The notes below the pieces were generated by a model. It was given only the letters and a program-made list of their open reading frames with translations. It had not been told where the DNA came from and did not search any database. A program made the position numbers and the translations under genes. A stretch of 24,860 bases of DNA, from positions 1-24,860 of the IMG/VR virus record IMGVR_UViG_3300009172_000053. The stretch is one strand, 5' to 3'. Numbering within the stretch: position 1 is the stretch's first letter; every line of letters begins with the position of its first letter. This DNA is from a virus. Shown here in pieces: positions 1-24,583 of the stretch.

Positions 1-1173
1 AATAGTATATGCTACATCGTTATATAATGCGTTAGTTCCCATTATATCTCTAAGTGATGAAGTAGTTCCACTAGCGAATATAAACGTCGGATTAACCGAG
101 TTAGAACTAGATGGTGATGGGGTTGGAGTCGGTCCAGGTGTACTTGAACTCGGTGTTGGAGTCGGTCCAGGTGTACTTGAACTCGGTGTTGGGGTCGGGC
201 TTCCTACTGGTGTACCATCTGCGTTTGCATCAATGTTTCCACCACCTATAGAAATACTATTATTATTAACTGGTGTACCATCTGCATTTGCATTAATGTT
301 TCCACCTCCAATTATTATAGAGTTAGGAACAGCAGCACCACATGTAGTACATAATTCTTTCCATTCATTGCCTGAAAAATAACCCTCAAATGTATCAGTA
401 TTTGAATTGTATCTGAGCATACCAGCCACTGCTGTGATAGGATCTGCAGTATTATTTAATTGAACAAAACCCTTAAACTCAGCATTAGAATCAACATCTA
501 ATATTCCTGAGCCTAGCGTTTCTAATTTAATATTAGAGTTTGATCCCGATTGAATAGTAACACCTGATCCACCTGTTATAGTAGTATTGTTGTTAGAATC
601 TAAATCAATAGAATCAACATTTATTGCAAATTGAATGTTTGAAGCTTGGAATGCGTTTTGAATAGCAAATCTAGTTATTGAAGTATTTGCATCATATGCT
701 CCTGTAAATACTATTTTCTCACCGCTATTGTCATCTATCAATGTAATGTAGTTATCAAAAGCAATTGAATCCTTTTTGATAGTTAATTTTGCATTAATAT
801 CAGTATTTATACCGTCTGTTGAAGCCATTTCATTAAATCCTTCATCTCCTATAAATACAACTGGAGTATAAGCTAAACCTAATCTCTTTGGTTTTAAAAT
901 TTTATAAGCTGCAGAATTAGCACCTGTTGGATCTACAGAGGACCATGGTGTGTTAGTGGTTCCGGTTTCACCCTTTAAACCCTGTTCACCTTTTAAACCC
1001 TGGTCACCTTGAGCTCCAGTTAAACCTGGATTTCCTTGACCACCTTTTTGACCCTTTAGGCCTCTTGGCCCACCGCCATTTGCTAGTATCTGATCAAAGT
1101 TGTAGTTAATTTTCTCAAACTTAATAGAATCAGAATCGCTTGGATGTAATATTTCTCTAATGTTGATTGCCAT
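1..1173 (-). CDS. Collagen-like tail fibre protein, C-terminus beyond window
   Basis: I translated this frame by hand: 391 codons from the ATG at 1171-1173 stay open to base 1, so the C-terminus is missing. The first ~31 residues (MAINIREIL...INYNFDQIL) look like a virion-anchoring head and resemble the start of the 186-residue protein at 15194-15754. Residues 35-71 are twelve uninterrupted Gly-X-Y triplets, a collagen-like trimeric rod. Residues 72-250 are a beta-rich shaft. Residues ~251-275 carry the pattern MLRYNSNTDTFEGYFSGNEW, common near the distal part of phage tail fibres. A CTTCG motif follows, then two 21-residue repeats (GGGNI.ANADGTPV) and a TPTPSSSTPGP linker repeat. Role inferred: trimeric tail fibre or receptor-binding protein mounted on the baseplate. 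The start is one base after the stop of the giant gene, and a promoter-like motif lies 55 bp upstream. Family is clear; receptor unknown. Confidence 0.85.
   Translation of the reverse strand, partial: MAINIREILHPSDSDSIKFEKINYNFDQILANGGGPRGLKGQKGGQGNPGLTGAQGDQGLKGEQGLKGETGTTNTPWSSVDPTGANSAAYKILKPKRLGLAYTPVVFIGDEGFNEMASTDGINTDINAKLTIKKDSIAFDNYITLIDDNSGEKIVFTGAYDANTSITRFAIQNAFQASNIQFAINVDSIDLDSNNNTTITGGSGVTIQSGSNSNIKLETLGSGILDVDSNAEFKGFVQLNNTADPITAVAGMLRYNSNTDTFEGYFSGNEWKELCTTCGAAVPNSIIIGGGNINANADGTPVNNNSISIGGGNIDANADGTPVGSPTPTPSSSTPGPTPTPSSSTPGPTPTPSPSSSNSVNPTFIFASGTTSSLRDIMGTNALYNDVAYTI
100..204 (-). repeat. Pro/Thr/Ser linker repeat with two exact 33-bp units
   Basis: Two identical 33-bp units occupy 125-157 and 158-190, with degenerate partial copies on both sides. 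Each encodes 11 residues of the type PTPTPSSSTPG. The linker separates the fibre body from the domain cut by the left edge. A diverged version of the same linker is found at 8570-8638 in the giant gene. Probably a flexible or stiff extended hinge; the exact repeat makes copy-number change by slippage plausible. Confidence 0.9.
205..324 (-). repeat. 63-bp tandem repeat in fibre gene, two copies
   Basis: Copies at about 268-324 and 205-261, period 63 bp, encode NSI.IGGGNI followed by ANADGTPV. They differ at a few bases only. The pattern of alternating hydrophobic and Gly/Asn residues fits stacked beta-strands in a trimeric fibre. Confidence 0.85.
961..1071 (-). other. Collagen-like Gly-X-Y coding segment
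   Basis: This segment encodes residues 35-71 of the fibre, with Gly at every third position thirteen times in a row and charged or polar X/Y residues (GLK, GQK, GEQ, GDQ, GET). Such runs form triple helices in phage fibres without hydroxyproline. Confidence 0.9.
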
Positions 1174-1174
1174 T

Positions 1175-4100
1175 TTATGACTTTATTTTTATCATAGGTT
1201 TTATATCATAAGAGTAGCCTAATCTTTTATTATATATCAACCTAAAATTCATTGGCTTTTGGACGTGACTTCTATATGCAAAATTATTCTTATCAAGCGT
1301 GAAACCGTCACTGTCTAATTGATCAATAGTTACTGCATTTATAATCTTAGAACCTTTACCCTTAAATCGTTTAGTGTATAATTGAACAGAATCTAGTATA
1401 TAAGTTTCTATTAAATTATTTTCAGCGTATAGTAGTGCATCATCGGTCAATGTTTCTTTGTTTCCAGCTGAATTAGCAGGAGAAACATATTTTGAAATAT
1501 TCTCTAACACACCGTCTTTTGCAAGTCTAGTAATTAATGTATCTGTTATGTAAAAATCAGCTATAACGTAATTTATATTTTCATATACAACAACATTACT
1601 AGTATTCGCATTATTTCTTAAAATATCATCTAGTTCTTCCTCTGAAGTAACATATGATGTGTTGAAATCAAGAAGATTATATGAATATTTAGGCTTCATC
1701 ACTGTTGATGCTAAATATGATCTTTCCTCGTGAGTGTCTAACGTGCCTGGAATACTAGTAGAAGTTCCACCTGCTAACGATCTTGTATAATAATCAGAAT
1801 CCCATGAGGATCTAAATACATTAATATCTTTTTTATCGATAGCGATCTCTCCAATAAGAGGATATAAAGGCAGTTTATCACTAGTACTAGAAAGTTTAGT
1901 TACACCACTAGGATTTATTTCATTTACTTTATGATAGAAATGATTTTTAATTATTCCCCATTCAGCATCATGTGTACCATCGTCACTAATAAACCCTAAG
2001 TTAAACATAACACCACATTTGTTATATCTTCTGTAATATGCATCTGCTCTATTAAACTCATCTAAATTAGTTAATGAGTGTTTATATAAAGCCTCTTCAA
2101 ATCTAAGCTCGTTAGTGTTATTTGTCAAATGTAATCTATTAACTTTAAAGTGAGAATATGCATCAGTAAATGTAACAATAGGTTTCATATCTACCGTATA
2201 ACTTCCATTATGTCTTATTAAGAAAGGATAATATTCAGAGTTAGACATTAAATTATAACCAATATTACCTTTAAATAATTTAAAACTTTTGGGTTTGTCT
2301 GTATCTTCTTCAATGTTAAGATTAGATCTTTGAATTACTTCTGTACCGTCGCTAAAGTTAATAACAAATCTATTGTTTAATATAGTTCCATCAACATCAA
2401 CTGTCGTATATGTAATCTCATCGTTGTTTAAGTTGACCAAGTCTGCAACTGATTTTGCTGTTAAATCTTCTAAAATAATTTTATGTGCATTTGCTCCACC
2501 ACCAACATATGTATACTCAGCTTTACCTTGTATAGAGTTGGGTAAGAATTCAATATCTAATATGTCATTAGCATCAGCGATATTAATTGGTTTCCCTGCT
2601 ATTTTTAACGAATTGTCTGAATCTACCGCTGTTACAGAAACTTTATAAATTGAATTAGTATCGTCGTTAGGAAATAAATCTATAATAATATCACCATATA
2701 GTCCGTCATCACCTAGTGTTATTTGAGAATCAAATTGAGGTAATGTGCCACTAATGTGAGAAACGCCAGGAATAGTATAAGGTCCTTCATCTGACCAGTT
2801 TATAGATGAATCATTAAATTGTAATGCACCATTAAACTTAGTATCAGCATACGCAAAATCGTTTTGATTAGAATCAAACACTATTTTATGGTTTAATTCA
2901 TAAAGTAGTTTTCTATTCATATTACTGTCAATCCAATAATCACCTAAGTTTAAAGTAATATACATGATAACAAACTTAAATTGTTTGTTTTGAATCACTT
3001 CATATGATATACTATTGGTTTCAGCATCTTCGTTAACTTTAAGAAGTATACTAAATTTATAACCATTGAATTCACTACTCTTTACAAATTCACTAGCAGT
3101 TGTGTTTACAAATTCTTTTCTATTTTTAAAATCAACTTTAATACCTTTAAATACTGTACTAGCATGTGATATTCTATTACCACCATCTACTAGTGAATAT
3201 TTCTTTAAAAGGTTGGTCTTAATGTATGATGTGATAGAATCTTCTAGTGAATTTATTTCTGGATCACCTTCAAAAATATCATCATAAATATCTACTAAAT
3301 CTTCTGATGTGAGTTTCTTTTCAAATCCATCACTAATCATAAACTTGTCAAAATAATTATTGACGGTACTTTTAAATAAACTAGCACTTAAATCAAATCC
3401 CTCTATAAAGTTAACGTAACTAAAAGTATCGTTAATTTCATTGTACTTCAAATACTTAGGTGGTTTTTCCATATAGAACCACTCATGTGTCATTGCTTCT
3501 CTGTCTCTTTCAGAAACTGATAAATCTGGGGAGAAATTAGTTCTACCAAATGCTTCGTTGACATTTAAGTAATATGGTTGCTCTCTGACTGTAACTGTAT
3601 CTTTAAGTACCCATTTGTTAATGTTAGGTACTATTCTAGAATTAGTAGCATATTCTTTTAAATTGTTTTCTTTAAGTCTGTCGTATTCTGATGTGATTTG
3701 TTCTAAATCTTCATCATCTACTGTTTCTTCAGTTAATATTTTAGATAAATTAGAGAAATAATCTATTGGATTTAATTCAAAATCCTCACTGAAAATATCC
3801 CTAGCGCTTAATATAGTAGTTTCAAGTCCAGTTGTTTCATCGATATTATTTATAGCGTTTGTATATGGTTCGTAATCTATTTCAGATTGAGTCTCGTACA
3901 CTAGTTCTTTTATGTCTGAATTAGATGTGTCATAAAAATCAGTATTTAAGTCATACATGTCATATGCTGAAAATAAACCCAATCTAACTTCATTTTCATA
4001 ATATATTTTACTATCACCATCGGTTAAATCGTTCTTATCTTCTAAAACTACTTTAGAATAATCACTGTTAATCCTAGTAATATCTTCTACCACGTCTATT

Positions 4101-7100
4101 ACTTTATTGTAGACATTAGCATATCTAGTTTGTATATAGTCGTTTGCATTTATTTCACTTAACGTTTCATTGTTTACAAATACTGATTTACCGGGTGCAT
4201 TACCACCTGAAAGGAAATATGCATCATATTTTTCTAATATGGCCTGTTCTGGCAATAATGCTATATTCTCTCTAAGTTGTAATCTATTATATAGATCTGC
4301 GTTTTCGATAGTTAAAAATTCATTAACATTACCTTTACCTAATAATAAGCAAGATTGCATTAATTCGTATCCAGATATTTTACTAACTATATAAACTATT
4401 GATCCAACGTTATGTGCAGTAAACCTAGATTCATTACCATCAATACATGCTGCTAGTGCTACCGCAACATCTGTTGTTGTACCCTGATTAGAATATCTAT
4501 ATCCTTCAAATCTACCAGCAACGATTTGAGATTCTGCTCTGTATATGTGATTTTGTAAATTTAGATTGGTTTGAATTTGATCATTTCTAATAATACAATC
4601 ACCTTGTGAAAGTATTCTTAAATTTAGATCTCCTAAATTAGCGTGTCTTTCAGTAAAAAAGAAACTTTTAGTATTAATAAAACTGCTACCATCAAGTGTA
4701 ATATCAAAAAGATCTCTGAATAATAAAGAATCTTCCATGTTTAGATAATATATGCTTGTACCATCTGCCTTGGTACCATATGTTACTTTATTATAAATAG
4801 TTTTAATAGTTTCAGAAAATCCATCAATGCCATTCAGTAGGTCATCTGCTACTGTTTCTATTGAAAATGTTTTAGGTGTGCTTGGATTTGCAGGATCATC
4901 AATAGCAAATACAATCACTTGTCCTGGAACGTATTTAATAAATGTGAATTTATTAGCTTCCTCTTTGATATTCGTGATTCCTAGTGCGTCATTAGTATGT
5001 GGCGTATTAGTTACGTTTAACTTTATGAAGTCATAGCCATGATCATTGTTTTCTTCCAGGTCAATTGATCTACCTGTTTCTTTTATACCTAATTGATCTG
5101 ATATGTAATTTCCTCCATCTTCTATGGCAACTTTCCATTCCTTGTCGTTATATACTGCATTACCTGAGACATTAAAGAATTTATTTCCTGCGCTAGCGTA
5201 TGCTAACATTGGCATTGTAGTAATTTGTTTATATGATGGTATTGCTGTCTCAGGCCTAGTGGCATCCACCAAAGAATTTAGTTCTTTAAAGTGGTGTATC
5301 TTACCATCAATCGAAAATATTCTACCATAACCAGAATCTATTTCATCTACAAATAATCCAAAGTATCTGTTTACACTATATTCTGATGCTAAATCATCGT
5401 TAAATAAAAATTCTAAATTAATTAAGTTTGCTGAAGCTATCGCATTTCTTCTAAATGCATCAGTTATATAATCATTTGCTTCAATTAATGGCTTATCAGT
5501 TAAGATATAATCTTTATATAGATATTCTCCTTTAGATGTAAAACCTCCCTTAATAAGATCGATTCCGTTAAAGCTAGATTTCTCCTTCTTTTCAAAGTTT
5601 ACAGTGATTGGTGCTGAAGGAAAAGTTTCGTCTTGTACGTGATTTCTTAAATATGTACCTATACTAGAATTTCTAGTTAAATCAAATGATTTAATAATTT
5701 CTGAATTTCTAAGAAGACTTTTAATTCTACTTAGATTATCTACAGCGTTATCTTGTAAATTTAAAGATCCCACTGGATCATTAATTCTGTAGATAACAAA
5801 GTTTCTAGGTATATGAGTGTCTAACCATATTGGTGCAAACATTCTAAAATCTTCTGTGTGCGATTTAGAAAAATTATAGTTCGTACCATATTGATATGAT
5901 TCTTCTATTTGTTTTTCATAACTGTCCAAAACAGTAATATCAGAATAATCTCTTTTTGTTTGGAACATTAGCTCGTTTGGAGTTGAGTTCACATTATAGA
6001 AATTAGCAACATCATACGCATATTTACCATCTTTGTTGATAGGAAATTTCTTGTATTCTACAGCTGCTAATTCTTTACTGGCATTTATACTTTCTAAATA
6101 TAAATTATCATCTTCACTAACAACTAACTTAACATTAGTAGTAAGTTTAGGATTTGTTCTTAAAAGTGGTCTAGAAACATTGTCTAATTTATAGTTAGAC
6201 TCTAAATCAAAGTTAGGTCCTAGTGCTTCAATAATAGAATCATCCATTATTGGCATGTTATATATAGAATCTGGATTTTTAGAAGGGTCTCCACAATCGT
6301 CACACGTCTCTCCAGAATAAACACTTATTTCTTGTTCACTTCCAAAACCTAAATCAACTGCATTAATACCAGCTACTTTAATACTTGGCGATGCATATGT
6401 AGTGTTAATAGAGTTTACGGCGCCTGCTATAGTTTCAGACCAAATAATGTGTACAAATGTTAGGCATCCATATCCCTCTGGTTGAACGGTCTGTTGTTTT
6501 GATATGTCATCGAAACTGTCGATTAAACCCTTGAGTGGGCTTTCGCCTAATGGAACAGAATTACCTTCAGCATTCATTGTAACATCAAAACCAGCATCAA
6601 CTACATGTAAATTCCAATATTGAGAAAGTGTTCCTAGTGTGTTATCTTGGTCCGTGTTTGAATTACACTCATAAAATACATAATATACATTAGTATCATT
6701 TATACCACCGTCTCCAGTAGTTAAGCCTAAGTTTTCACTATTAAGGCCTGGTCTATTGTATTGCACACAATCACCTAATTGCGTGATCTCTGAATTCTTT
6801 ACAAATTGGTTGCTGCCATTAAATCCATACCAGTTATATTCAAACCCATCACCTTCGTTGTCCCATACTAAATAACCAGCATCAATGCCAAAATCCAAAT
6901 ATACACCGGCTGGTGCCAAACCCTCTATTATGTTTCCATCTGCAGCAAGTTGACTTGTGAATATTGGAATATGTTGTTGGGCTATTTCAATTAAATCTAA
7001 TTCAACTGGAACAATTCCATTAATTTCCGGGAGTCTATAATAAATATCTTGTGTAGTAGAGCTGGTACCACATATATCATCAACGTTTGTCGCATATGTT

Positions 7101-9310
7101 AAAGTACCTAAATTAAATGTAACATATGTTATAGGCTCAGGACAATACCATTTTACATCTCCATTTGTTGTGGTCCATGCGCCGGTAATTCCTCTTTTGT
7201 AGTAAATATCTGCTTCGCTATCTGCTTGATATAAACCTGCTGGAATTAACCCCTCTAGTGTTTCATTAAGGCCATTTTGATATTGATTTGCTCTATAGCT
7301 ACTAACAAACAGTTTAGTGTTATTTGCAACTAGTGTTCCTAGAGATATTGAAGGATCTCCAGCTGTTGAGATTCCGTAATATACGTCTACTGTTTCACCT
7401 CCGCCAGGATTACAAAGACTAGTCTCTGATCCAGAATATCTAACTCTAGTTTTTTGAAATAAATCTGATTGTGCCTCACATGTTCCTATAGTTAATATTT
7501 CACCAGAACTATTTAGCGTTATTATTTTTTCTTGATCGTCTTGTACTATTTTACAATGAGTTGCAATGTTATCAGAAGCTCTAACGCCTGCACCATTAAC
7601 ATCATTATATATTTTATCACCTATTGAAAGTCCACTTATTTGTGTTGCATTCTGTGTTGAGAACCAAGCTGAATTAGTTGCTGGCTCTAAACATGCATCG
7701 TCGTCATTGTTATAAAATGCGGTTGCATTAATTTCAAAGAATGCAGGAAACGAAATGTTTACAGTAATAACAGTTGTAGAAATACTTCCTTCAGAATCTT
7801 CTGCGCTTAATGTTATGGTGTCTGGCCCAGTTTCACCTAAATTTGGTGTATATGAAACAGTAGAATTACCAGTATCTATTGAAGCTACACCCTTTGATGG
7901 CTGTACAGTAATAGAATATGTAATAGTTTGACCTTCTGCATCAATTGCATTGTACGAAAGGTTTATCGCTGTTGTCTCATTTAGAGACGTTGCTATTGTA
8001 TAAGGCGTGTTCTGAAATACTGGAGCAGTGTTAGCTTCAGCTGCTATGTTAATAGTAACAGTTCCACCTGATATATTACCAGTAGTATCTTCTGCAGTAT
8101 AATTAAATGTTTGTTGTTTGTCGCCATCTGCAAATACTAATTGAGGTGCAGTATATAATGTTCCACCACTTGTAAGTGTGCCAAGAGATGATCCTGATAT
8201 TACAGGGGTTAAAGCGCCGAGTGTAATTATAAGGTCACCATCAGCGTCTATATCATCGCTTACTAACGACCATATATTAATGTTTTGAGTATCTTCAGAA
8301 TTAAGGTTAATTATACTATCATTTGATACTGGAGCACTATCGCCATCAATGGATCCTGTACATGTTATTGTTCCATCTGCTGAATTTTGATACCCACCTG
8401 GTATTGTAATGGTAAATGTGTAAGTACTTGAACCTGGTTGTATTGTAGTAGGTGCTACTATTCCTGATACACCAACTGCAGCATAATTAGTGCTTATGTC
8501 AATAACTGTACCCACTGCCAATCCATCTAAACTAGATAAATCTAATTGAGCTACTGTACAGTCAAATATAGGATCGGGCGATGGAGATGGCGTTGGCGTT
8601 GGTGCTGGTACACTTGAACTTGGTGTTGGCGTTGGAGCTACATTAACAATGTCTAATGTTGCAGAATCATTTGAACCCATGCCGGTTGCGTCAGTTGATG
8701 ATAAATCAAATTTCAGAACTTCTAAACTTTCAGTTTCAGCATCAGTGTTTATTGCAAACGTAAGTGTTGCTTGATATAGAAACGGATCTGATGCGGAAAT
8801 TACAGAAAGAGGTATTGCGTCGTCTATGACTAAATCAAGATCATTGTAGTCTGCTGCAGTTGCACCATTATCATCAAGTATATACTCAATATCTTCACCA
8901 ACAAAATCTCCAAGTGCTGTAATGAAAAGTGAAACAGTGTCACCTTCGCTTGCTTGTGTTATTGAAGTTCCAGAGGCTGTACTTAATTCCCATCTATTAT
9001 CTAAAAATAATTTACTACATTCACTAGTTGTTGTGCTGGTTTGTCCGCTAACACTGTTAATTTTAATTTCACCAAAAAAAGATGTGTCCTTTATTGCCCA
9101 AAAGTTCTCTCCAGTTTCATTGTTTAGGTATGTTGAGGTGACTGCTGTAGTTAGCGTAGTCTCTTGGTATAATTGTACACCAATTACTGACGAAATGTCG
9201 GATATATCATCATACCATACCTCGATCTCTGTTGTATCTACGCGATCAAAACTACATGTTGATGCAGCATTGGCAGACGCTTGAAATAATTTAATTGAAA
9301 TTGATGCCAT
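1175..9310 (-). CDS. Giant modular virion protein (2711 residues), probable tail appendage or adhesin
   Basis: No full-length family recognised. From the N-terminus: residues 1-110, unassigned beta-rich; ~113-225, Calx-beta-like, with the EGD...ATAADY pattern; 225-247, a TPTPSSSVPAPTPTPSPSP linker; 250-325, beta-sandwich; ~326-424 and ~427-519, two cadherin/bacterial Ig-like domains (D.DADGD, NTAPVF, SYNAIDAEG); ~525-965, about four Cys-bounded repeats containing DVYY/DIYY/NVYY and GL.PAG.Y; ~1000-1010, a CDDCGD motif. Residues ~1040-2711 are long, without obvious repeats, and include NPKLTTNVKLVV (1053-1064) and IPRNFVIYRINDP (1167-1179). Two Y..D.KP motifs occur near ~2370 and at the C-terminus. 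No signal peptide is seen. The architecture and neighbours suggest a very large fibre, tail tip or host-adhesion protein. It follows the 1279-residue gene after the largest gap of the window, which holds a promoter-like motif. The reading frame is intact over 8.1 kb. Confidence 0.85.
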   Translation of the reverse strand: MASISIKLFQASANAASTCSFDRVDTTEIEVWYDDISDISSVIGVQLYQETTLTTAVTSTYLNNETGENFWAIKDTSFFGEIKINSVSGQTSTTTSECSKLFLDNRWELSTASGTSITQASEGDTVSLFITALGDFVGEDIEYILDDNGATAADYNDLDLVIDDAIPLSVISASDPFLYQATLTFAINTDAETESLEVLKFDLSSTDATGMGSNDSATLDIVNVAPTPTPSSSVPAPTPTPSPSPDPIFDCTVAQLDLSSLDGLAVGTVIDISTNYAAVGVSGIVAPTTIQPGSSTYTFTITIPGGYQNSADGTITCTGSIDGDSAPVSNDSIINLNSEDTQNINIWSLVSDDIDADGDLIITLGALTPVISGSSLGTLTSGGTLYTAPQLVFADGDKQQTFNYTAEDTTGNISGGTVTINIAAEANTAPVFQNTPYTIATSLNETTAINLSYNAIDAEGQTITYSITVQPSKGVASIDTGNSTVSYTPNLGETGPDTITLSAEDSEGSISTTVITVNISFPAFFEINATAFYNNDDDACLEPATNSAWFSTQNATQISGLSIGDKIYNDVNGAGVRASDNIATHCKIVQDDQEKIITLNSSGEILTIGTCEAQSDLFQKTRVRYSGSETSLCNPGGGETVDVYYGISTAGDPSISLGTLVANNTKLFVSSYRANQYQNGLNETLEGLIPAGLYQADSEADIYYKRGITGAWTTTNGDVKWYCPEPITYVTFNLGTLTYATNVDDICGTSSTTQDIYYRLPEINGIVPVELDLIEIAQQHIPIFTSQLAADGNIIEGLAPAGVYLDFGIDAGYLVWDNEGDGFEYNWYGFNGSNQFVKNSEITQLGDCVQYNRPGLNSENLGLTTGDGGINDTNVYYVFYECNSNTDQDNTLGTLSQYWNLHVVDAGFDVTMNAEGNSVPLGESPLKGLIDSFDDISKQQTVQPEGYGCLTFVHIIWSETIAGAVNSINTTYASPSIKVAGINAVDLGFGSEQEISVYSGETCDDCGDPSKNPDSIYNMPIMDDSIIEALGPNFDLESNYKLDNVSRPLLRTNPKLTTNVKLVVSEDDNLYLESINASKELAAVEYKKFPINKDGKYAYDVANFYNVNSTPNELMFQTKRDYSDITVLDSYEKQIEESYQYGTNYNFSKSHTEDFRMFAPIWLDTHIPRNFVIYRINDPVGSLNLQDNAVDNLSRIKSLLRNSEIIKSFDLTRNSSIGTYLRNHVQDETFPSAPITVNFEKKEKSSFNGIDLIKGGFTSKGEYLYKDYILTDKPLIEANDYITDAFRRNAIASANLINLEFLFNDDLASEYSVNRYFGLFVDEIDSGYGRIFSIDGKIHHFKELNSLVDATRPETAIPSYKQITTMPMLAYASAGNKFFNVSGNAVYNDKEWKVAIEDGGNYISDQLGIKETGRSIDLEENNDHGYDFIKLNVTNTPHTNDALGITNIKEEANKFTFIKYVPGQVIVFAIDDPANPSTPKTFSIETVADDLLNGIDGFSETIKTIYNKVTYGTKADGTSIYYLNMEDSLLFRDLFDITLDGSSFINTKSFFFTERHANLGDLNLRILSQGDCIIRNDQIQTNLNLQNHIYRAESQIVAGRFEGYRYSNQGTTTDVAVALAACIDGNESRFTAHNVGSIVYIVSKISGYELMQSCLLLGKGNVNEFLTIENADLYNRLQLRENIALLPEQAILEKYDAYFLSGGNAPGKSVFVNNETLSEINANDYIQTRYANVYNKVIDVVEDITRINSDYSKVVLEDKNDLTDGDSKIYYENEVRLGLFSAYDMYDLNTDFYDTSNSDIKELVYETQSEIDYEPYTNAINNIDETTGLETTILSARDIFSEDFELNPIDYFSNLSKILTEETVDDEDLEQITSEYDRLKENNLKEYATNSRIVPNINKWVLKDTVTVREQPYYLNVNEAFGRTNFSPDLSVSERDREAMTHEWFYMEKPPKYLKYNEINDTFSYVNFIEGFDLSASLFKSTVNNYFDKFMISDGFEKKLTSEDLVDIYDDIFEGDPEINSLEDSITSYIKTNLLKKYSLVDGGNRISHASTVFKGIKVDFKNRKEFVNTTASEFVKSSEFNGYKFSILLKVNEDAETNSISYEVIQNKQFKFVIMYITLNLGDYWIDSNMNRKLLYELNHKIVFDSNQNDFAYADTKFNGALQFNDSSINWSDEGPYTIPGVSHISGTLPQFDSQITLGDDGLYGDIIIDLFPNDDTNSIYKVSVTAVDSDNSLKIAGKPINIADANDILDIEFLPNSIQGKAEYTYVGGGANAHKIILEDLTAKSVADLVNLNNDEITYTTVDVDGTILNNRFVINFSDGTEVIQRSNLNIEEDTDKPKSFKLFKGNIGYNLMSNSEYYPFLIRHNGSYTVDMKPIVTFTDAYSHFKVNRLHLTNNTNELRFEEALYKHSLTNLDEFNRADAYYRRYNKCGVMFNLGFISDDGTHDAEWGIIKNHFYHKVNEINPSGVTKLSSTSDKLPLYPLIGEIAIDKKDINVFRSSWDSDYYTRSLAGGTSTSIPGTLDTHEERSYLASTVMKPKYSYNLLDFNTSYVTSEEELDDILRNNANTSNVVVYENINYVIADFYITDTLITRLAKDGVLENISKYVSPANSAGNKETLTDDALLYAENNLIETYILDSVQLYTKRFKGKGSKIINAVTIDQLDSDGFTLDKNNFAYRSHVQKPMNFRLIYNKRLGYSYDIKPMIKIKS
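1229..1238 (-). promoter_or_regulatory. Candidate late promoter for collagen-like fibre
   Basis: GATATATAAT on the minus strand, 55 bp before the fibre start and inside the last codons of the giant gene. It is identical to the three intergenic copies at 9357, 23225 and 24574. No shared -35 element is visible, as with T4 late promoters (TATAAATA box only). Confidence 0.5.
8570..8638 (-). repeat. TPTPSSS linker in giant gene, related to the fibre linker
   Basis: Encodes residues 225-247 of the giant protein (PTPTPSSSVPAPTPTPSPSP and flanks). At both protein and DNA level it resembles the linker at 100-204, for example the shared bases cacttgaact.ggtgttgg.gt. It joins the Calx-beta-like part to the Ig-like part. 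Confidence 0.8.
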
Positions 9311-9331: not shown

Positions 9332-9360
9332 TAATAGAGTTCTCATTACCTTCTCTATTA
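9332..9360. promoter_or_regulatory. Inverted repeat upstream of giant gene
   Basis: TAATAGAG (9332-9339) and CTCTATTA (9353-9360) are perfect 8-bp inverted arms around a 13-base spacer. The right arm overlaps the promoter-like motif at 9357-9366. This could be an operator or a 5' leader hairpin; chance cannot be excluded in AT-rich DNA. Confidence 0.3.
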
Positions 9361-9366
9361 TATATC
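9357..9366 (-). promoter_or_regulatory. Candidate late promoter for giant virion protein
   Basis: GATATATAAT on the minus strand, in the 83-bp gap before the giant gene, ending 46 bp before its ATG. Same 10-mer as at 1229, 23225 and 24574. Confidence 0.55.
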
Positions 9367-13234: not shown

Positions 13235-15172
13235 TTATCTTAAAATATCTGCTTCAAAGAGATAGGTTGTAGGATCTACACATACTATCTCAATATATGG
13301 TTTATTTGTTAAAAGTTGACTAACATCTATTTCAGCAATTAGTTTATCAAATCTATTGACTTTATCAGAATAGATTTTAATACTGTTACCTTGCATGTCT
13401 ATCGTATCAAATACTATCTTAAGTGTTTGACCAACCTTCCATGAAATAGAACTGTCGTCAATGTATATATTCAGATCATTATTAGGATCCGATGATAACA
13501 AGCCGTTTAAGCTTAGTCTATTAGTATACTCTTGTAATTTTGTCCAGATTGCAAATTTATCAGCACCTTGGCCATTAACATTTGCATCGAACGGTGTAGT
13601 TGTGGTCAATCTAGCAGCTAACGCTTCTCCAGACATGTTGTATATCCAAGCTTCACCTAAAGAATAACCGTATACTGTGTTATTAATTTTTATCTTGTTC
13701 TCAATAGTTTTATCAACGGCAGTACCTTTACCATTAAAGATAACATCAGTATTATATTGTAATTCTACTGGGACTGTGCCATCAATTAATCTATTAATTT
13801 TATCATGTGCCCTAGTTATTAATTGTAATAAAGATTTTGAATCTTGTAACTGAATAGACGCATTTTCAAAGTCAGACTCTACTGCAGCTATTCTATTAAC
13901 AATATCTTCACTATCATTAGACATTAAAACCAATGATTCTAAATCATACAATCTTGTGTCAATACCTAAGTATCTTGTATTTGCTTCTAAAAGTAACTGT
14001 GTTACATTCTCAAGTGCAGTAGTTGTGTCCATGAATAAATCCATAGAAAATGTTGTAAAATCATTAATAGAAGTTTCAACACCTACGTTATCAAGAGAAG
14101 AATTAAACTTTAAGTTTAGCTTTAATGAGTATGCATTACCGTTAAGTCCAGTAACCTCATTTGGCTTATACTTAATTTGTTCGTGTATTTTTGTACCAGG
14201 ACCGAATGCATCTTTAATATCATCTAAGATTAGAACACCATATAAGTTAGTAGCTCTATTTGCAGGTACTGATTCACTGTAAAGATCATAATAAATTAAT
14301 ATTGCGTTAAACCTAAAGTCCTGTCCTTTTTGAGAAAATTCTAAAATAGAAGTAGTGTCTGGGTCTTGTTCTATTGCAGCATAGCTTCCGGCAGCAAATT
14401 CAATTTGTACTGAATTAGTTGCATTGGTTTGAATGTCATAATACGGTCCACTTTCGGCATTGTATTCATCGACAATTGAGTCTATGTTGATATTAGAATC
14501 TGGGTGTACTTGACCTGCTCTTCCTTTAATATAATCATCTGCATATAATTTAGTAGCAGTTGTATTATAATTAGTTGGTCTAAATAAAACAGTTGGCGTG
14601 TAACCTACTGATGTCGGAACATTAACGTAAACTTCATGATAAGTATTATCAGAATAAGTTACGTCGTTCTCTGCGTCAATAGTTCCTAGATATTTTACTA
14701 GTCTTTCGTAATTTCCACCACCTAAGATAGCATTATCGTTTTCTGCATATAAACCATTAATACTCTCATTAGAGTCTGTTGGTCTAAAATCTACAGCACC
14801 TAGTTTTGACATCCATTTAAAGAATACCTTTTCAGCATCTGATTGCAAAATGATTGGATCATAGTCATCATCTCTTAATAGAAGTTCTTCTAGGTTAAGA
14901 GCGTAATTCTGAAAAGTTTGCGCGAAATCTACATTTGGCATCGATGCAACATAAGATTGACCTGAGGCTTGTTTTAAACCAAGTTCATAGTCAATAACAT
15001 TAGAACCATTTACTGATTGCGTAAAATCTGGTAGATCAAGTAATGCATACTTGCTAAATTCAAATTTTAGATCAGGATTGTTAAAGGCCCTAGTTATGTC
15101 TCTTGCAGCCGATGCGAATGCATACATTGTGCCGCCTTGCGGCTGTGGTATTCTAACTAAAGGAGTCGCCAT
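13235..15172 (-). CDS. Virion structural protein, probable baseplate periphery (645 residues)
   Basis: No specific family recognised. The N-terminus (MATPLVRIPQPQGGTMYAFA) leads into an alpha/beta region (~1-380) with TFQNYALNLEELLL and FFKWMSKLGAVDFRP segments that look packed rather than fibrous. Residues ~384-465 are predicted helical and coiled. Residues ~565-645 form a C-terminal beta domain (ISWKVGQTLKIVF ... PYIEIVCVDPTTYLFEADILR). The gene lies 21 bp after the short fibre-like gene and one base before the 1279-residue gene, so the three are probably cotranscribed. By position it falls where T4 carries gp8-gp11, but sequence similarity to those proteins is not evident. A baseplate or fibre-adaptor role is inferred from context. 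Confidence 0.8.
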   Translation of the reverse strand: MATPLVRIPQPQGGTMYAFASAARDITRAFNNPDLKFEFSKYALLDLPDFTQSVNGSNVIDYELGLKQASGQSYVASMPNVDFAQTFQNYALNLEELLLRDDDYDPIILQSDAEKVFFKWMSKLGAVDFRPTDSNESINGLYAENDNAILGGGNYERLVKYLGTIDAENDVTYSDNTYHEVYVNVPTSVGYTPTVLFRPTNYNTTATKLYADDYIKGRAGQVHPDSNINIDSIVDEYNAESGPYYDIQTNATNSVQIEFAAGSYAAIEQDPDTTSILEFSQKGQDFRFNAILIYYDLYSESVPANRATNLYGVLILDDIKDAFGPGTKIHEQIKYKPNEVTGLNGNAYSLKLNLKFNSSLDNVGVETSINDFTTFSMDLFMDTTTALENVTQLLLEANTRYLGIDTRLYDLESLVLMSNDSEDIVNRIAAVESDFENASIQLQDSKSLLQLITRAHDKINRLIDGTVPVELQYNTDVIFNGKGTAVDKTIENKIKINNTVYGYSLGEAWIYNMSGEALAARLTTTTPFDANVNGQGADKFAIWTKLQEYTNRLSLNGLLSSDPNNDLNIYIDDSSISWKVGQTLKIVFDTIDMQGNSIKIYSDKVNRFDKLIAEIDVSQLLTNKPYIEIVCVDPTTYLFEADILR

Positions 15173-18832: not shown

Positions 18833-20665
18833 TTATTTCTTTAGTGCTTTTCTATCGCCTGCCTGTAACCTAGTATATATTGTCCTAGGAACCGGGTCTC
18901 CATCAAAGTTTATACTTAATGCAGCTTCAGCGTTGATTAAAACATCATCAGTAATATCATCACCGTCTCTGTCTTGCCATCCGCCTCTAAATACTGCAAC
19001 TTCTTCTTTCTCCATAATAATATCACCCCATCTGTCTAATCCAACCACAGTTTCAGGTATAATAGTCTTTTCGTCAACCGTTACTGTGCTAACTTCTTCT
19101 ATTCTTTTAAAGAACACATATTTTTGTTTTCCGTTTCCAACGTTTTCTAAAGTTACAGGATCTTGTGGTACAACTGATACTGTTTTAGATTCAAAATAAC
19201 CCAACCTTCTAGCTGTCTCTTCAGTTTCAGATATAAATTTAACGTTAACTGCGTCAATACCTTCTATTTCTTCTAAGATGTAAATAATATCCGACTTAGG
19301 CAACTTATCTCTTCTTGTTACATTTAATAAGTACTCATCTATTTTAGATCTAATATCAATAGATAATTCATCTTTTGTAAATCCTTCGAAATACCTGATG
19401 TTTACATCCATGCTATATTTTCTAACCTTAGGCTTAACAAAAACAACTTCAGTCGTTACCATTTGTTGACCGCTATCTTGTAATACTTTACGCATTTTTT
19501 CATACTCTTGATCATCGAAAAACATTTCTTCTTGAGGTATAGAAAAATAATCTTGGTTTTTGGCTAGTTTCTTTCTAACATCTGGAACTGCAAAAATATA
19601 AATTACATTATCATCATCTAAATATTGATCATCAGTAGTGTTATATGCATCTAAATAAGAGAATATACCATATCTTGATAAGAAGTATTCATAATTGTCA
19701 GGCGTTGCTAAAACAAATGACTTACTAGCAAGCGGTGTCATAATCTTAGTAAACTGAGTAGATTCTCTGTCTGTTCCCATTTTTGGGGATGATGTAACTG
19801 TAATATCTAAGAAATTATTTAAGTCATGTTGTGTACCTACAGAATCTACACCCTGTGCTTGCCACTTTAATGTTAAATCATTAGAATCATCTAAGTTTCC
19901 TTTTTTACCATCATGTGTGACATACTCTATTTCAATTTTAGAACCCTGTTGAGGCGCCATACCAAATGCGGTGTTTCCAAAATAAACATCTAATCCACCT
20001 GAAATACCTGTTTTAATAAGGTAACCTTTTTCATCTCTTTGTAAATCATAAAGAGATTCCTGCTTTGTCCATAATTCACCGTTAACGCTAACACTTATTT
20101 TGCTATGATCAGTTAATCCCTTTGTCTGCGCGTTAAAAGATTGTAAAGGTTCACCATCACCAGTAAATGTTTGTGTTTCAAACTTACCTTGAATAATTGC
20201 AGTATTAATCACCTTGTTGTTACTTTTCTCTAATCTAAATCTATCTTTACTTGTTAACAAAGTGTAAGTTAATCCATTAAGATCAAACTTTAATTCAGCT
20301 CTATTTTCTATTGTAATTCCAGCACCTGATATTTTTTCAAAGTCTACACCTGGTTTCCATCTAAATTCTATTTCACCAGTTGCTGCGAATCCTCTAGTAG
20401 CATCATGACCCGTAAGTCTACTCATACCATATATTGATTCAGGATGTTGAGCAGTATATATGTTCTGTTCAACTATTGCATCTTCAAGATAGAATAATAT
20501 TAATTCTTGAATCTCTGTTATTACACCTAATATTTGAGCAAATGGCGATGCTTCAGTAAATAATGTACCTGCTCTTCCATAAACCCTAGAAATATAAACC
20601 CTAGCATCATCACTGACCTGCTTTGCGGTTGCTCTTAGTGTACTTATAAATTTTAATTCTGCCAT
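18833..20665 (-). CDS. gp6: Baseplate wedge protein, gp6/gpJ family
   Basis: 610 residues, close to T4 gp6 (660). The N-terminal ~80 residues are helical (FAQILGVITEIQELILFYLE), as in gp6/gpJ proteins, where this part packs in the wedge. A beta-rich middle (~95-310) follows. Residues ~405-480 hold the most family-like part: KYSMDVNIRYFEGFT, then DIRSKIDEYL, then LPKSDIIYILEEIEGIDAVN, the typical end of the baseplate J-like domain. In contractile tails gp6 homologues form the iris-like ring joining wedges around the hub and trigger sheath contraction. The gene begins one base after gp25, the usual gp25-gp6 (W-J) pairing, which reinforces both calls. Leader A/T-rich, no Shine-Dalgarno. Confidence 0.88.
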   Translation of the reverse strand: MAELKFISTLRATAKQVSDDARVYISRVYGRAGTLFTEASPFAQILGVITEIQELILFYLEDAIVEQNIYTAQHPESIYGMSRLTGHDATRGFAATGEIEFRWKPGVDFEKISGAGITIENRAELKFDLNGLTYTLLTSKDRFRLEKSNNKVINTAIIQGKFETQTFTGDGEPLQSFNAQTKGLTDHSKISVSVNGELWTKQESLYDLQRDEKGYLIKTGISGGLDVYFGNTAFGMAPQQGSKIEIEYVTHDGKKGNLDDSNDLTLKWQAQGVDSVGTQHDLNNFLDITVTSSPKMGTDRESTQFTKIMTPLASKSFVLATPDNYEYFLSRYGIFSYLDAYNTTDDQYLDDDNVIYIFAVPDVRKKLAKNQDYFSIPQEEMFFDDQEYEKMRKVLQDSGQQMVTTEVVFVKPKVRKYSMDVNIRYFEGFTKDELSIDIRSKIDEYLLNVTRRDKLPKSDIIYILEEIEGIDAVNVKFISETEETARRLGYFESKTVSVVPQDPVTLENVGNGKQKYVFFKRIEEVSTVTVDEKTIIPETVVGLDRWGDIIMEKEEVAVFRGGWQDRDGDDITDDVLINAEAALSINFDGDPVPRTIYTRLQAGDRKALKK

Positions 20666-20666
20666 T

Positions 20667-21023
20667 TTATCTAATGTTTAATTGTACGAGATATTTGCTA
20701 TCTACTGTTATATCAATATATGCAATATCTCTAACGTTACCTTTAAGGAAGTTAACCTTAGTTGAAACGCTGTATTTTTGTGCTAAAGGGCAATAATATT
20801 TAATCTGCGTGTCTAACACGTCTTTTAATTGACCTTCATTATATCCTAAAGAATATATGTAACTTTCTAGATCACATCCAAATCCAGGTGATCCTAAAAC
20901 ATCAGCCTTTCCAGTGAATAAAACAGTCTCGATCTGTTGAACGAGTTGTTCTATCTCACCATTAGTTTGGACTTGTGTATCGTTCCAATTCGGGTCTCCT
21001 AAAGTTTTTATATAAAAATCCAT
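20667..21023 (-). CDS. gp25: Baseplate wedge protein, gp25/GpW family
   Basis: 118 residues, against 132 for T4 gp25. Characteristic features are an early helix (EIEQLVQQIETVLFT, ~25-39), then VLGSPGFGCDLESYIYSLGY, matching the conserved pattern in which a loop with PxFG precedes a helix, and a C-terminal beta-hairpin (RDIAYIDITVD). The family is called lysozyme-like, but in T4 it is a structural wedge protein that anchors the first sheath ring; no enzymatic role is claimed. The next gene is gp6, one base away. The preceding virion gene ends 21 bp upstream. Confidence 0.9.
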   Translation of the reverse strand: MDFYIKTLGDPNWNDTQVQTNGEIEQLVQQIETVLFTGKADVLGSPGFGCDLESYIYSLGYNEGQLKDVLDTQIKYYCPLAQKYSVSTKVNFLKGNVRDIAYIDITVDSKYLVQLNIR

Positions 21024-21044
21024 TTATATATGTATCTCGTTTTT

Positions 21045-21887
21045 TTAACTATGGAACATGAAGTCTACACCTTCATCTCCTTTAATTTCTTCTTCTATTG
21101 CTTCTAATTCACTGTCACCCATATCTTTAATAGCACCATAATCAAATTCAACATTACCAGGTAATGCAAATTTAAAGATGCCTAACTTAGCACCCAACGA
21201 TTGTTTTATCTTAGCACTAACATATCTAAAGAATATCTCATCGTCATACAGAGCACAGTCTGGAATAGTCTCATACAATTCCAATATAACGTCACCCTTA
21301 GGTGTATCACCCATAATCTTTAATTCACCAGTATTTCTTTGGTACTGGTAAGAAATAGGATTTTCTAGAATCTGTCTAGACATATCGGCTAACGAAGCAT
21401 TTAATACATAGTATTGTAATTCTTCTGCAGCTTCAGCTGGACCTGATCCATTGTACATATTTCTAAATAACATTCTTTCTAATGCAAAATCTGCACCGGG
21501 TTGGAATCTAAGATCCATTCCAGATCCAACTGAATTCCATCCAGATGTTAAATCATATACACCATATACTGAAAATACTCCACCGCCACCATCAGTTGCT
21601 GGTGCTGGTAAATTAAGAACTCTATTCTCTACAAAATAAGGTGAATTAAAAGTCTCAAAAGGAATATGATAATAGTTTTCCCTAACAGAGTCTTCGTACT
21701 TCTTATACATCCATTTTTTAGACCTTTTAATTATGTTAATAACTTCTTTTTGTGGCAGGTTCACAGGTAACATACATGCTCCTGTAATTTCATCTGCGAT
21801 TTCTTCTAAAAAAGAGTTTAGGCAGTTTGTTCCAAAATCCCTAGGTGTTATTAAATTATTATTGCTTCCGCTTCTAATTTCACTCAT
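21045..21887 (-). CDS. Virion protein, possibly neck or tail-completion (280 residues)
   Basis: Not firmly recognised. The N-terminal third is helical: ITPRDFGTNCLNSFLEEIAD, then LPQKEVINIIKRSKKWMYKKYEDSVREN (~45-72). A central part has a Gly run (DGGGGVFSVYGVYDLTSGW, ~98-116), and the C-terminus is acidic (DMGDSELEAIEEEIKGDEGVD). The pattern ELYETIPDCALYDDEIFFRY (~204-223) and a helical end fit a ring-forming connector or neck protein. Position, 3 bp after the amidoligase-like gene and 21 bp before gp25, also fits a neck or tail component. It could equally be a baseplate protein. The frame is intact; the start is the only ATG near the upstream gene end and has a poly-A/T leader. Confidence 0.75.
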   Translation of the reverse strand: MSEIRSGSNNNLITPRDFGTNCLNSFLEEIADEITGACMLPVNLPQKEVINIIKRSKKWMYKKYEDSVRENYYHIPFETFNSPYFVENRVLNLPAPATDGGGGVFSVYGVYDLTSGWNSVGSGMDLRFQPGADFALERMLFRNMYNGSGPAEAAEELQYYVLNASLADMSRQILENPISYQYQRNTGELKIMGDTPKGDVILELYETIPDCALYDDEIFFRYVSAKIKQSLGAKLGIFKFALPGNVEFDYGAIKDMGDSELEAIEEEIKGDEGVDFMFHS

Positions 21888-21890
21888 TTC

Positions 21891-23201
21891 TTAATTTATT
21901 TTTTTACTAACTACAACTTCAGTAGTATCTCCTATTCTAGCATCTTTTCCTAAGAAGCCTTCTCTGTATATACCACCGATAGTTCTACCTTTAAATACAC
22001 CATCACGGCCAAATATAAAACAATTAGTAGCAGTAGCACTACCATGTACATAACATGATTCTACTTTACTGTCTTTCATTTCTGTACTACTATAAATATT
22101 ACATCTTTTAAGCATAGATCCTTCTACATTGCAATTATACATTGCAGAGTTTTCTACATTACCTCTAATTTCACAATCTATAAATTCATATCCATCTAAA
22201 ATGAATACAGCCGGAAAGACTCCGTCCTTTATTTGAAGCGTACCATAATCAGAATCATAATTTATAATTCCTCTTTCCATAGTACCGTTTGCTATTAAAT
22301 CAATTACCCTATCCTTTATTCTAGGCCATTGAACCTTAACAACTTGCTCATTGTCTTGTAAATCAACCAATACGTGAATATTAGGGAAATGTTTGTTTAA
22401 TTTAGTATGGTCCTTTAGAGACTCTATAAGTGGTTTATTCTTATTAAGAATTCTTTTAAGTTCTACTCTATTCTGTGGCGTAAATCTAGGATCATTACAT
22501 GATTTCCACATTTGCATGATAAATCTTTCGCCTAAATACAAAATCTCGTCTTTGCTCTTTTGATAATCTTCACCACCAATATATCTAAATTCTAGATAAT
22601 TGCTTTCAGCCTTTGAGAAATTAATCCCATAGTATTTAGAATCTGCAAACTTAAAATTCATCGGTGAAATATGATCTTCATCGAAGTAATAGGCTTCTCT
22701 TGCTGGCATTATCCATTTTACACTTTTAGCGTATGTTGAATTTTCTCTAGATGGAAAGAAATTATAAACTTGTTGCTCATCAAACTCTAAAATAAACTTA
22801 AGTACATTCATTTTAGAAACCATCAATGGATCTTCTAAATAATCATTTTGAAAAGACATGTTTAAGTGAATACTTGCACGATCATTAGTATAACCGTTTT
22901 TGTCAATCCAATCCAACATTTTAATAATAATTATCCTAGCATTTCTATAAGGAATTGGACCAGTAACAAGTTCTATAAGTCCCTTACCTCCTGACATATC
23001 AGGTTCCATTTTAAAGACCTTATCGTCTGGTACGAAATCTGAATGTGCCTTTTCTTCTAGTTGAATTTTTCTATTCAATAGATCAGAAAGAGACTTTTGG
23101 GTCTCTTCAAGCCCCATATTGGAATAGAACTCAAACTCCACGCCTATTTGCGCGGAGTTCAAGATCTGTTCTTTTGTAGATTTTATATTAAGTTTTTGCA
23201 T
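21891..23201 (-). CDS. Amidoligase-like enzyme with C-terminal beta-helix
   Basis: Residues ~18-235 carry motifs of the amidoligase branch of the glutamine-synthetase-like COOH-NH2 ligase superfamily: IGVEFEF (19-25), K64-M-E-P-D-x-S70, IELVTGP (76-82), SIHLNMS (110-116, with H112) and NYLEFRYIGG (201-210). In the family the first Glu residues and the ELVTGP and H/EFR segments bind ATP, metal and substrates to form an amide bond. Residues ~330-425 are short turns repeating C-x-[IV] (CEI 343, CNV 357, CNI 367, CYV 383, CFI 394) with Gly/Ser-rich corners, like a stacked beta-helix. No signal peptide. A promoter-like motif ends 23 bp before the ATG, and the virion gene at 21045 follows 3 bp later. 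Substrate unknown: it might modify a virion protein, cell wall or small molecule. Enzyme family is fairly sure; activity is inferred. Confidence 0.78.
   Translation of the reverse strand: MQKLNIKSTKEQILNSAQIGVEFEFYSNMGLEETQKSLSDLLNRKIQLEEKAHSDFVPDDKVFKMEPDMSGGKGLIELVTGPIPYRNARIIIIKMLDWIDKNGYTNDRASIHLNMSFQNDYLEDPLMVSKMNVLKFILEFDEQQVYNFFPSRENSTYAKSVKWIMPAREAYYFDEDHISPMNFKFADSKYYGINFSKAESNYLEFRYIGGEDYQKSKDEILYLGERFIMQMWKSCNDPRFTPQNRVELKRILNKNKPLIESLKDHTKLNKHFPNIHVLVDLQDNEQVVKVQWPRIKDRVIDLIANGTMERGIINYDSDYGTLQIKDGVFPAVFILDGYEFIDCEIRGNVENSAMYNCNVEGSMLKRCNIYSSTEMKDSKVESCYVHGSATATNCFIFGRDGVFKGRTIGGIYREGFLGKDARIGDTTEVVVSKKIN
23134..23159 (-). other. Stem-loop in early coding region of amidoligase gene
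   Basis: On the mRNA, AACUCCGCGC pairs with GCGUGGAGUU across a 6-base loop: ten pairs including one G-U. It covers codons 15-23 and is unusually GC-rich for this AT-rich region. It overlaps the codons for the conserved GVEFE motif, so codon constraint may explain part of it. Confidence 0.35.
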
Positions 23202-23224
23202 CTAGAGTATGATATTACCGTTTG

Positions 23225-23234
23225 ATTATATATC
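23225..23234 (-). promoter_or_regulatory. Candidate late promoter for amidoligase/baseplate operon
   Basis: GATATATAAT on the minus strand in the 49-bp gap, ending 23 bp before the amidoligase ATG. Same 10-mer as at 1229, 9357 and 24574. It would serve the tightly packed series down to the 1279-residue gene. Confidence 0.6.
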
Positions 23235-23250
23235 ACACTCCCGTTTAAAC

Positions 23251-24549
23251 TTATTGTGGTAGTTTAAGAAATACTTTCATTGAGTCGACATCGATCCTTG
23301 TAATTTGTACAGTGATCTCATCTCCTGGTTTAAATACTGACATCGTATCTTCACCTATTTCACTTATATGTAGCAATCCTGTTACTCCGTCTTCTATTGT
23401 AATAAATAAACCGTAGTCCTTTTTAGTTTTAACTTTAGCAATAACATTTGAAGGAATTTGGTACCTAGATTGAATATCTACCCATGGATTCGTTTCTACA
23501 TTTGCCTTTTGTGTCAGCGTTATCTTCTTCTCGCTTACTATATCTTTAACTTTAAATGCAATAGCATCTCCAGGTTTAATTTCTCTAGCCTTAAACTTAA
23601 CTAATGTTTCTTCGTCTAAATCATTATTGTGAATCATTCCAGTTAAACACATATTAAACTCAACAAATACACCATATTTAGCAGTACCGGTAACATGTCC
23701 TGTTTGTTCGTTATCAATAGTTTCTTTTAATTCTTCTATTTTACTAGGAATTAATGCTTGTAAATATTTTCTATGAGAAACAACTAATGTACCTCTGTCT
23801 GGTGAGAAACTTACAGGAACAACATACAATTCGGTTCCTATAATAGAACTAAAGTCATGTAGTTTATTAATACCAGCTAGTGATCCAGGCATAAAGCAAT
23901 CAATTCCTTGAACGCTTACTATGTAACCTCCATTCTCAATCATGTTTACAACTGTACCTACCCAAGCAGTGTCACCTTTTTCAACACCATCTCTAAGATC
24001 CATGAATGTTCTTTGTTTAACACCACCACTGATGCTTCCAATGACATGTGATCCTGGTTGATATGTTGTAATTAACACTGAAGTAGTTTCACCTGGCTTC
24101 AGGGCTTGAACCGATTCAGGTTCTTTTTCAAACTTAATATAAACTGATTCTCTGTAACCGATGTCGACTGTGATCCAGTCTGAGCTCACCGCAAATACAG
24201 TACCATCATAGATTGCACCTTCCTGTAATTCAGGCAACATGTTAACATTAGACTCGTACTTCTCCATTTTATCATATAGCTCTTGCGCATATAATTCTCT
24301 AGAGTATACTTTGTCTCCGTTTCTGGTTTTAATATGTTTGTTTGGCTTTCTAAGTCTAGTTATACAAGTAGCTTCATATTCATCCCACATGAATTCTCCT
24401 TCTGCATTATACCAAGGGTCTTTGGTATCTTCTAACTCCTCTGTCTTAGTTGTTGATTCTACTACTGTTTCAGTATTCGATTGTACTGTCTTTACTGCTA
24501 GATCAACCGTAGTTTCGCCGATTCTAGCTCTTTTTGATTTATTTGTCAT
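23251..24549 (-). CDS. S1-like RNA-binding protein with four S1 domains
   Basis: 432 residues. After a ~105-residue polar N-terminus (Thr/Glu-rich, then DPWYNAEGEFMWDEYEA) come four OB-fold S1 repeats: ~107-176 (GAIYDGTVFAVSSDWITVDIG), ~187-260 (GTVVNMIENGGYIVSVQGID then CFMPGS), ~278-347 (GHVTGTAKYGVFVEFNMCLTGMIH) and ~362-430 (VIAKVKTKKDYGLFITIEDG then GLLHISE). Bacterial ribosomal protein S1 usually has six such domains (four in some lineages); it recruits mRNA to the 30S subunit. The phage protein could compete with or supplement host S1, or act as an RNA chaperone; a virion role is possible but less likely. A promoter-like motif lies 24 bp before the ATG, giving it its own transcription start. 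S1-like proteins are known from some phage genomes; placing one next to baseplate genes is notable. Confidence 0.88.
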   Translation of the reverse strand: MTNKSKRARIGETTVDLAVKTVQSNTETVVESTTKTEELEDTKDPWYNAEGEFMWDEYEATCITRLRKPNKHIKTRNGDKVYSRELYAQELYDKMEKYESNVNMLPELQEGAIYDGTVFAVSSDWITVDIGYRESVYIKFEKEPESVQALKPGETTSVLITTYQPGSHVIGSISGGVKQRTFMDLRDGVEKGDTAWVGTVVNMIENGGYIVSVQGIDCFMPGSLAGINKLHDFSSIIGTELYVVPVSFSPDRGTLVVSHRKYLQALIPSKIEELKETIDNEQTGHVTGTAKYGVFVEFNMCLTGMIHNNDLDEETLVKFKAREIKPGDAIAFKVKDIVSEKKITLTQKANVETNPWVDIQSRYQIPSNVIAKVKTKKDYGLFITIEDGVTGLLHISEIGEDTMSVFKPGDEITVQITRIDVDSMKVFLKLPQ

Positions 24550-24573: not shown

Positions 24574-24583
24574 ATTATATATC
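24574..24583 (-). promoter_or_regulatory. Candidate late promoter for S1-like gene
   Basis: GATATATAAT on the minus strand in the 44-bp gap, ending 24 bp before the S1-like ATG. Same 10-mer as at 1229, 9357 and 23225, with no common sequence further upstream. Confidence 0.6.

Follow-up and report, generated by a model that had tools for sequence, protein, structure and literature searches.

Phage enzymes of the Amidoligase_2 class have been proposed to modify peptidoglycan together with GATase, ATP-grasp and cyclotransferase partners, encoded among early or replication genes (PMC5498523, PMC3890496, PMC10580990); in the phages carrying such wall cassettes, the amidoligase lies among early genes with its GATase and ATP-grasp partners (PMC3890496). 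Here we describe a protein of this class encoded in a 24,860-nucleotide stretch of viral DNA (the window; IMG/VR record IMGVR_UViG_3300009172_000053). Described phage PF12224 enzymes, such as gp9 of Salinivibrio phage CW02, the LUZ24-like proteins and AUZ94978 of Agrobacterium phage Atu_ph07, have a GS-like domain with the same ExE/D/E/H/R..Y/N/EFR series as the window protein. CW02 gp9 is a single-domain protein of 266 aa from an early cassette with ATP-grasp and amidotransferase genes, whereas the window protein carries an additional solenoid and is encoded among tail genes. AUZ94978 is encoded two genes from the portal gene and shows no solenoid in the alignment; the main text of the Atu_ph07 paper does not mention the amidoligase gene (PMC6102473). 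Glutamine synthetase and GshA share the fold of the catalytic half, including the strands on which the conserved acids and the EFR arginine lie, but are related to the solenoid-fused window protein at only about 10% identity and with low TM-scores. AlbG, MfpA and QnrB1 display the five-residue strand spacing of the C-terminal domain and match it by profile and fold, but are free-standing gyrase-binding proteins, whereas the window solenoid is a short appended domain. RimK and other ATP-grasp protein ligases offer a parallel to the chemistry proposed here, ATP-driven formation of an amide bond on a protein, on an unrelated fold. The first-pass annotation was aware of no earlier account of such a combination, and we likewise found no description of a pentapeptide-solenoid/amidoligase fusion fixed in a tail region within the open-licence literature, a body of work outside which most subscription journals fall. 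The enzyme class is already known in phages; what appears to be undescribed is the two-domain form, together with its constant position among tail genes.

The gene (21891..23201, minus strand, stop included) was called as an ATG-initiated open reading frame of 436 aa. Its product contains GVEFEF, IELVTGP, H112 within IHLNMSF, and YLEFRY, the amidoligase motif series read by the first-pass annotation. A GS-like (Amidoligase_2) domain (22494..23153, minus strand; residues ~17-236) was delimited by fold search and by conservation in 61 representatives (the window protein and one from each of 60 clusters at 75% identity); its key residues are E22, E24, D68, E77, H112, N194, E204 and R206. DSSP analysis of the AlphaFold2 model places a helical connector (22290..22478, minus strand; residues ~242-304) between this domain and a pentapeptide-repeat-type beta-solenoid, which together with its N-terminal strands (21972..22274, minus strand; residues ~310-410) was delimited by models and profile matches. 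With the single 436-aa protein as query, a sequence search of the PDB gave no match, nor did anti-phage defence models match the gene.

Pfam PF12224 aligned with residues 18-120 of the window protein at an E-value of 2.7e-4 and 21.4 bits, just below the cut-off of 22 bits, and matched 13 of 49 homologues at E <= 0.01 (best 3.4e-6). Profile-profile comparison with the amidoligases of Atu_ph07, CW02 and phi14:2 gave 96.7% and an E-value of 3.4e-10 over the catalytic region, and the ExE, E, H and EFR series aligns with the CW02 and Atu_ph07 enzymes. An AlphaFold2 model of the full-length protein, built from a 49-sequence alignment, reached a pLDDT of 90.7 and a pTM of 0.80. The top Foldseek matches to this model among solved structures were glutamine synthetases (E 2.2e-5, probability 1.0), with TM-scores that are low (0.25-0.3), as expected of a remote relative; the pentapeptide-repeat protein AlbG ranked lower. 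The viral library gave a full-length uncharacterised phage protein (A0A6J5PQ40, TM-score 0.84) as its best match, followed by a long series of proteins, many of them named amidoligase.

Eleven residues (G20, E22, E24, D68, S70, E77, K189, N194, E204, R206 and N314) are identical in 61 of 61 representatives. At the position of H112, 55 of them have His and the other 6 have Gln; at that of R152, 52 have Arg and 9 a different residue. The model places E22 and E24 on the first strand, E77 on strand 75-79, H112 on strand 110-117, and E204 and R206 on strand 203-209. Proteins of the GS superfamily are known to share this layout. The first-pass annotation had named two outcomes contrary to its reading, absence of the GS-like fold or of the E/H/R catalytic set, and a match of the whole protein to a non-enzymatic virion family. 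Neither was observed: a GS fold is predicted, the catalytic residues are conserved and no such family matched. Invariant residues and GS-type strand placement in the model provide good evidence that the ligase site works, and we regard it as highly probable that the protein is an amidoligase-class enzyme with an intact site and predicted activity.

Both the full-length model and a separate model of the C-terminal domain (pLDDT 94.3) show short strands spaced about 5 residues apart across residues 310-410. A five-residue repeat building a beta-solenoid, the property that defines pentapeptide-repeat proteins, is thus found in this domain. Its profile matches the pentapeptide-repeat proteins AlbG (1.3e-6) and MfpA (1.8e-5), and Pentapeptide_4 matches 25 of 49 homologues (best 5.7e-6). 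The stacked beta-helix noticed at first reading is accordingly retained as a stacked solenoid; its assignment to the type seen in virion or carbohydrate-binding proteins was dropped, as profile, Pentapeptide_4 and fold matches all lead to the pentapeptide type. Foldseek matches of the solenoid to the SV2 luminal domain were set aside as reflecting a shared, general pentapeptide-like shape with no functional lead. Every one of the 61 representatives fills at least 69 of 74 solenoid positions, which argues that the fusion is old and fixed. Conservation is higher in residues 17-216 (0.61-0.64) than in the solenoid (0.49); a binding part that changes along with its partner might show such lower conservation.

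The two-domain fusion is conserved across a family of environmental and huge phages. A protein search of annotated phages yielded only six matches, all from uncultured, metagenomic huge-phage records of 462-735 kb, with coverage of 85-98% and identity of 33-41%, and searching annotated phages at the DNA level, with the window as query, gave no match. IMG/VR is far richer in relatives: three scans returned at least 547, at least 488 and at least 565 confirmed stretches, on hundreds of contigs. Three further relatives (L172, L173 and L174) were found in bacterial genome assemblies. Their contigs measure 4-254 kb and bear the labels Deltaproteobacteria, uncultured bacterium and Bacteroidetes; these are probably phage sequence binned with bacteria. 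Al-Shayeb et al. 2020 (PMC7162821) assign the largest genomes of their study to the Mahaphage clade, for which they predict hosts among the Bacteroidetes.

In the window, the amidoligase gene is preceded, across a 49-nt gap, by a ribosomal-protein-S1-like gene (23251..24549, minus strand; 432 aa; Pfam S1 6.7e-22, NCBIfam S1 models). Downstream, after 3 nt, follow an Ad2-like head-tail adaptor (neck) gene (21045..21887, minus strand; PHROG 211, E 1e-10), a gp25-like baseplate wedge gene recognised by weak matches (20667..21023, minus strand; PHROG 43, E 0.01; Pfam GPW_gp25, E 0.057), a gp6/Baseplate_J-like wedge gene (18833..20665, minus strand; PHROG 219, E 7e-27; Pfam Baseplate_J, 5e-5) and more structural genes, all co-oriented. 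The placement at the head of a baseplate operon made in the first-pass annotation thus agrees with the gene order. Over about 330 residues, the S1-domain protein closely resembles ribosomal protein S1 of bacteria. Further along the window lie a 2711-aa gene with Ig-like domains (1175-9310, minus strand) and a collagen-repeat gene (1-1173, minus strand). Such Ig-like and collagen-like parts are typical of fibres, and both genes likely encode fibres.

A survey of related phages showed that the linkage to neck and tail genes is kept. A neck, baseplate or tail gene lies within 5 kb of the amidoligase in 56 of 62 clusters defined at 85% identity, and within 1 kb in 41. At 75% identity, a level that brings in more distant relatives and shorter contigs, a recognised neck or tail gene lies within 5 kb in 44 of 60 clusters; some of the remaining 16 are short contigs or have unknown neighbours. 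The clusters are related to each other, and these counts are not independent. Of the 60 clusters, 20 have the order S1, amidoligase, Ad2; they come from several deep branches within one major clade, and in 19 of the 20 Ad2 is positioned -14 to +18 nt from the amidoligase stop. In a second major clade (Maha-type), which holds the largest genomes, the amidoligase adjoins gp53-like and gp5-like hub/lysozyme genes or, in another arrangement, has Ad2 and gp25 a few kb away on the opposite strand. One sub-group has the amidoligase surrounded by long genes whose matches, to tail fibres and head closure, are weak. Tail linkage thus outlasts the change of neighbours, since the Maha-type clade has gp53-like and gp5-like hub genes instead. 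Tail modules are large, and proximity could therefore partly be inherited position. Overall, the neighbourhood suggests both the timing and the partner of the amidoligase.

The motif GATATATAAT lies 33 nt upstream of the amidoligase start codon (23225..23234, minus strand). Its other exact copies in the window precede the S1 gene (24574-24583), the 2711-aa gene (9357-9366) and the collagen-like gene (1229-1238), all on the minus strand, so that each of the four sits on the coding strand, ahead of a gene start by 33, 34, 56 or 65 nt, in line with the promoter-like motif ascribed to the gene at first reading. Among near relatives, the coding strand has 376 occurrences of GATATATA and the opposite strand 8, and the motif is found upstream of 106 of 115 amidoligase homologues and 110 of 116 S1 genes. 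A [G/A]ATATATA box precedes the amidoligase in 15 of 20 distant clusters, where 0.018 per 60 nt is expected. A general sigma-70 scan showed no excess, and the box is therefore probably phage-specific. We take it to resemble the late boxes of T4-like phages. GATATATAAT is probably a promoter box of the window phage lineage, which would make the amidoligase the first gene of a unit running into the neck and baseplate genes; we infer late expression. A candidate RNA hairpin around the box (GAGTGTGATAT...ATATCATACTC) was discarded: by eye, its pairing is not kept in relatives, where only GATATATA is invariant.

Many unrelated genes of the huge phages begin with an MKYIxEYEEFLxE-like sequence that resembles the T4 capsid-targeting sequence (CTS) of internal head proteins; 19 such N-termini were counted, against a single one in a control stretch, and the window lineage has none. 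Examples in L025 are 13931-14314(-), 19606-20238, 20633-21649, 21749-22750(-), 22806-23417 and 23414-23944, with others in L027, L028 and further records. Proteins that begin in this way could form a large set that is packaged in the capsid and ejected. A T4-like capsid-targeting N-terminus on the amidoligase itself was considered and rejected: Maha-type proteins have Y-x-x-x-F in place of the CTS-like Y-x-x-F, and the window lineage has neither. A DHH-family-like protein with a CTS-like N-terminus is encoded in L028 (16811-18802; Pfam DHH, E 1.7e-4), and a DHH-family-like gene lies near the amidoligase in most of the Maha-type clade. In L145, an R2K-type ATP-grasp ligase gene (5461-6171, minus strand; Pfam R2K_2, E 8e-27) lies about 3 kb from the amidoligase.

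The protein is best explained as an ATP-dependent carboxylate-amine ligase of the Amidoligase_2 (GS-like) class, predicted to be active and expressed late as the first gene of a neck/baseplate transcription unit. ATP and Mg would activate a carboxylate to an acyl phosphate at the site formed by E22, E24, E77, E204 and R206, and the acyl phosphate would then be coupled to an amine. The pentapeptide-type solenoid would most likely serve as a docking or oligomerisation domain that sets the enzyme on a partner, the likeliest being a neck or tail component during assembly, with Ad2 the first candidate. A virion protein could thereby acquire an amide or isopeptide modification; alternatively, the enzyme could remain associated with the virion. 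A virion role ranks highest because the gene is located among tail genes, Ad2 is closely spaced and solenoids of this kind usually bind proteins. We put the chances of this complete explanation, a late and active amidoligase working with the neck/tail module through a docking solenoid, at about even, and the claim that the amidoligase acts on or with the assembling virion is just as evenly poised. A narrower version, in which the enzyme is a dedicated tail-assembly ligase, docked on the neck or baseplate by its solenoid and forming isopeptide bonds or adding amino acids on a virion protein, is put forward tentatively. If true, the contractile tails of large phages would undergo a covalent, ATP-driven step of maturation that is so far undescribed.

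The first-pass annotation had named a virion protein, the host wall or a peptide product as possible targets. After action on the assembling virion we rank envelope modification, followed by a soluble product, the translation apparatus or a dead scaffold. A late amidoligase could alter peptidoglycan side-chain linkages of the host envelope, bringing about superinfection exclusion or controlled lysis. The enzyme class is the same, this role has been proposed in print for phage PF12224 enzymes (PMC5498523, PMC10580990), and an M15-peptidase-like gene is often about 3 kb away in the Maha-type clade. Against such a role, the known cassettes lie among replication and early genes, whereas the window gene lies among tail genes, and the cassette itself is missing. 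Pfam and PHROG searches found no ATP-grasp, GATase or cyclotransferase gene beside the amidoligase in the window. GATase_6 was found in none of eight huge-phage records, and gamma-glutamyl cyclotransferase (PF06094) was not found within 10 kb of the amidoligase in any of the eight, three of which carry a distant copy. A modification cassette of the phiEco32/LUZ24/RIO-1/CW02 type was rejected, its partner genes being found neither beside the amidoligase in the window nor, for GATase_6 and the cyclotransferase, near it in these records, and envelope modification overall seems rather unlikely.

A small molecule or peptide product, such as a gamma-glutamyl-type metabolite unrelated to the virion, is improbable. 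Many GS-like ligases (GshA, EgtA type) do make small molecules or peptides, and such a product would fit the interpretation of 'glutamine synthetase' genes in large aquatic phages as nitrogen-metabolism genes, reported for nine moraphages (PMC12619734); some of those glutamine synthetases may be amidoligases like the window protein. The close Ad2 spacing and tail-gene linkage argue against it, as do a fused solenoid of a type typical of protein contacts and a window with no other recognised biosynthetic gene.

Equally improbable is a target in the translation apparatus, where the enzyme might add residues to the phage S1-like protein or to a host ribosomal protein. RimK, an enzyme of another fold, provides the model, adding residues to S6. 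S1 is a conserved upstream neighbour in the 20 clusters mentioned above, and overlaps the amidoligase gene in three. Peptide ligases of jumbo phages have also been proposed to modify host proteins (PMC7824862). However, a separate promoter-like box stands between the two genes in the window lineage, Ad2 spacing is tighter than S1 spacing, and the Maha-type clade keeps its tail linkage with no adjoining S1. Finally, a non-catalytic virion structural protein on a former enzyme fold, with the solenoid as its working part, would suit the neck/tail operon position but is the least probable reading, given that E22, E24, E77, E204 and R206 are invariant at pairwise identities down to 28% (the lowest in the 49-sequence set) and that the catalytic half is better conserved than the solenoid.

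Returning to the preferred virion role, an amidoligase is nearly fixed in the tail region of widespread aquatic jumbo and huge phages, and therefore probably matters in their late cycle. Its clear active site makes the role directly testable. If virion proteins are modified, these phages would encode an enzymatic step of tail maturation and, with it, a candidate protein-ligation enzyme. The location of the gene suggests that phage amidoligases are perhaps not wall-modification or metabolic genes alone.
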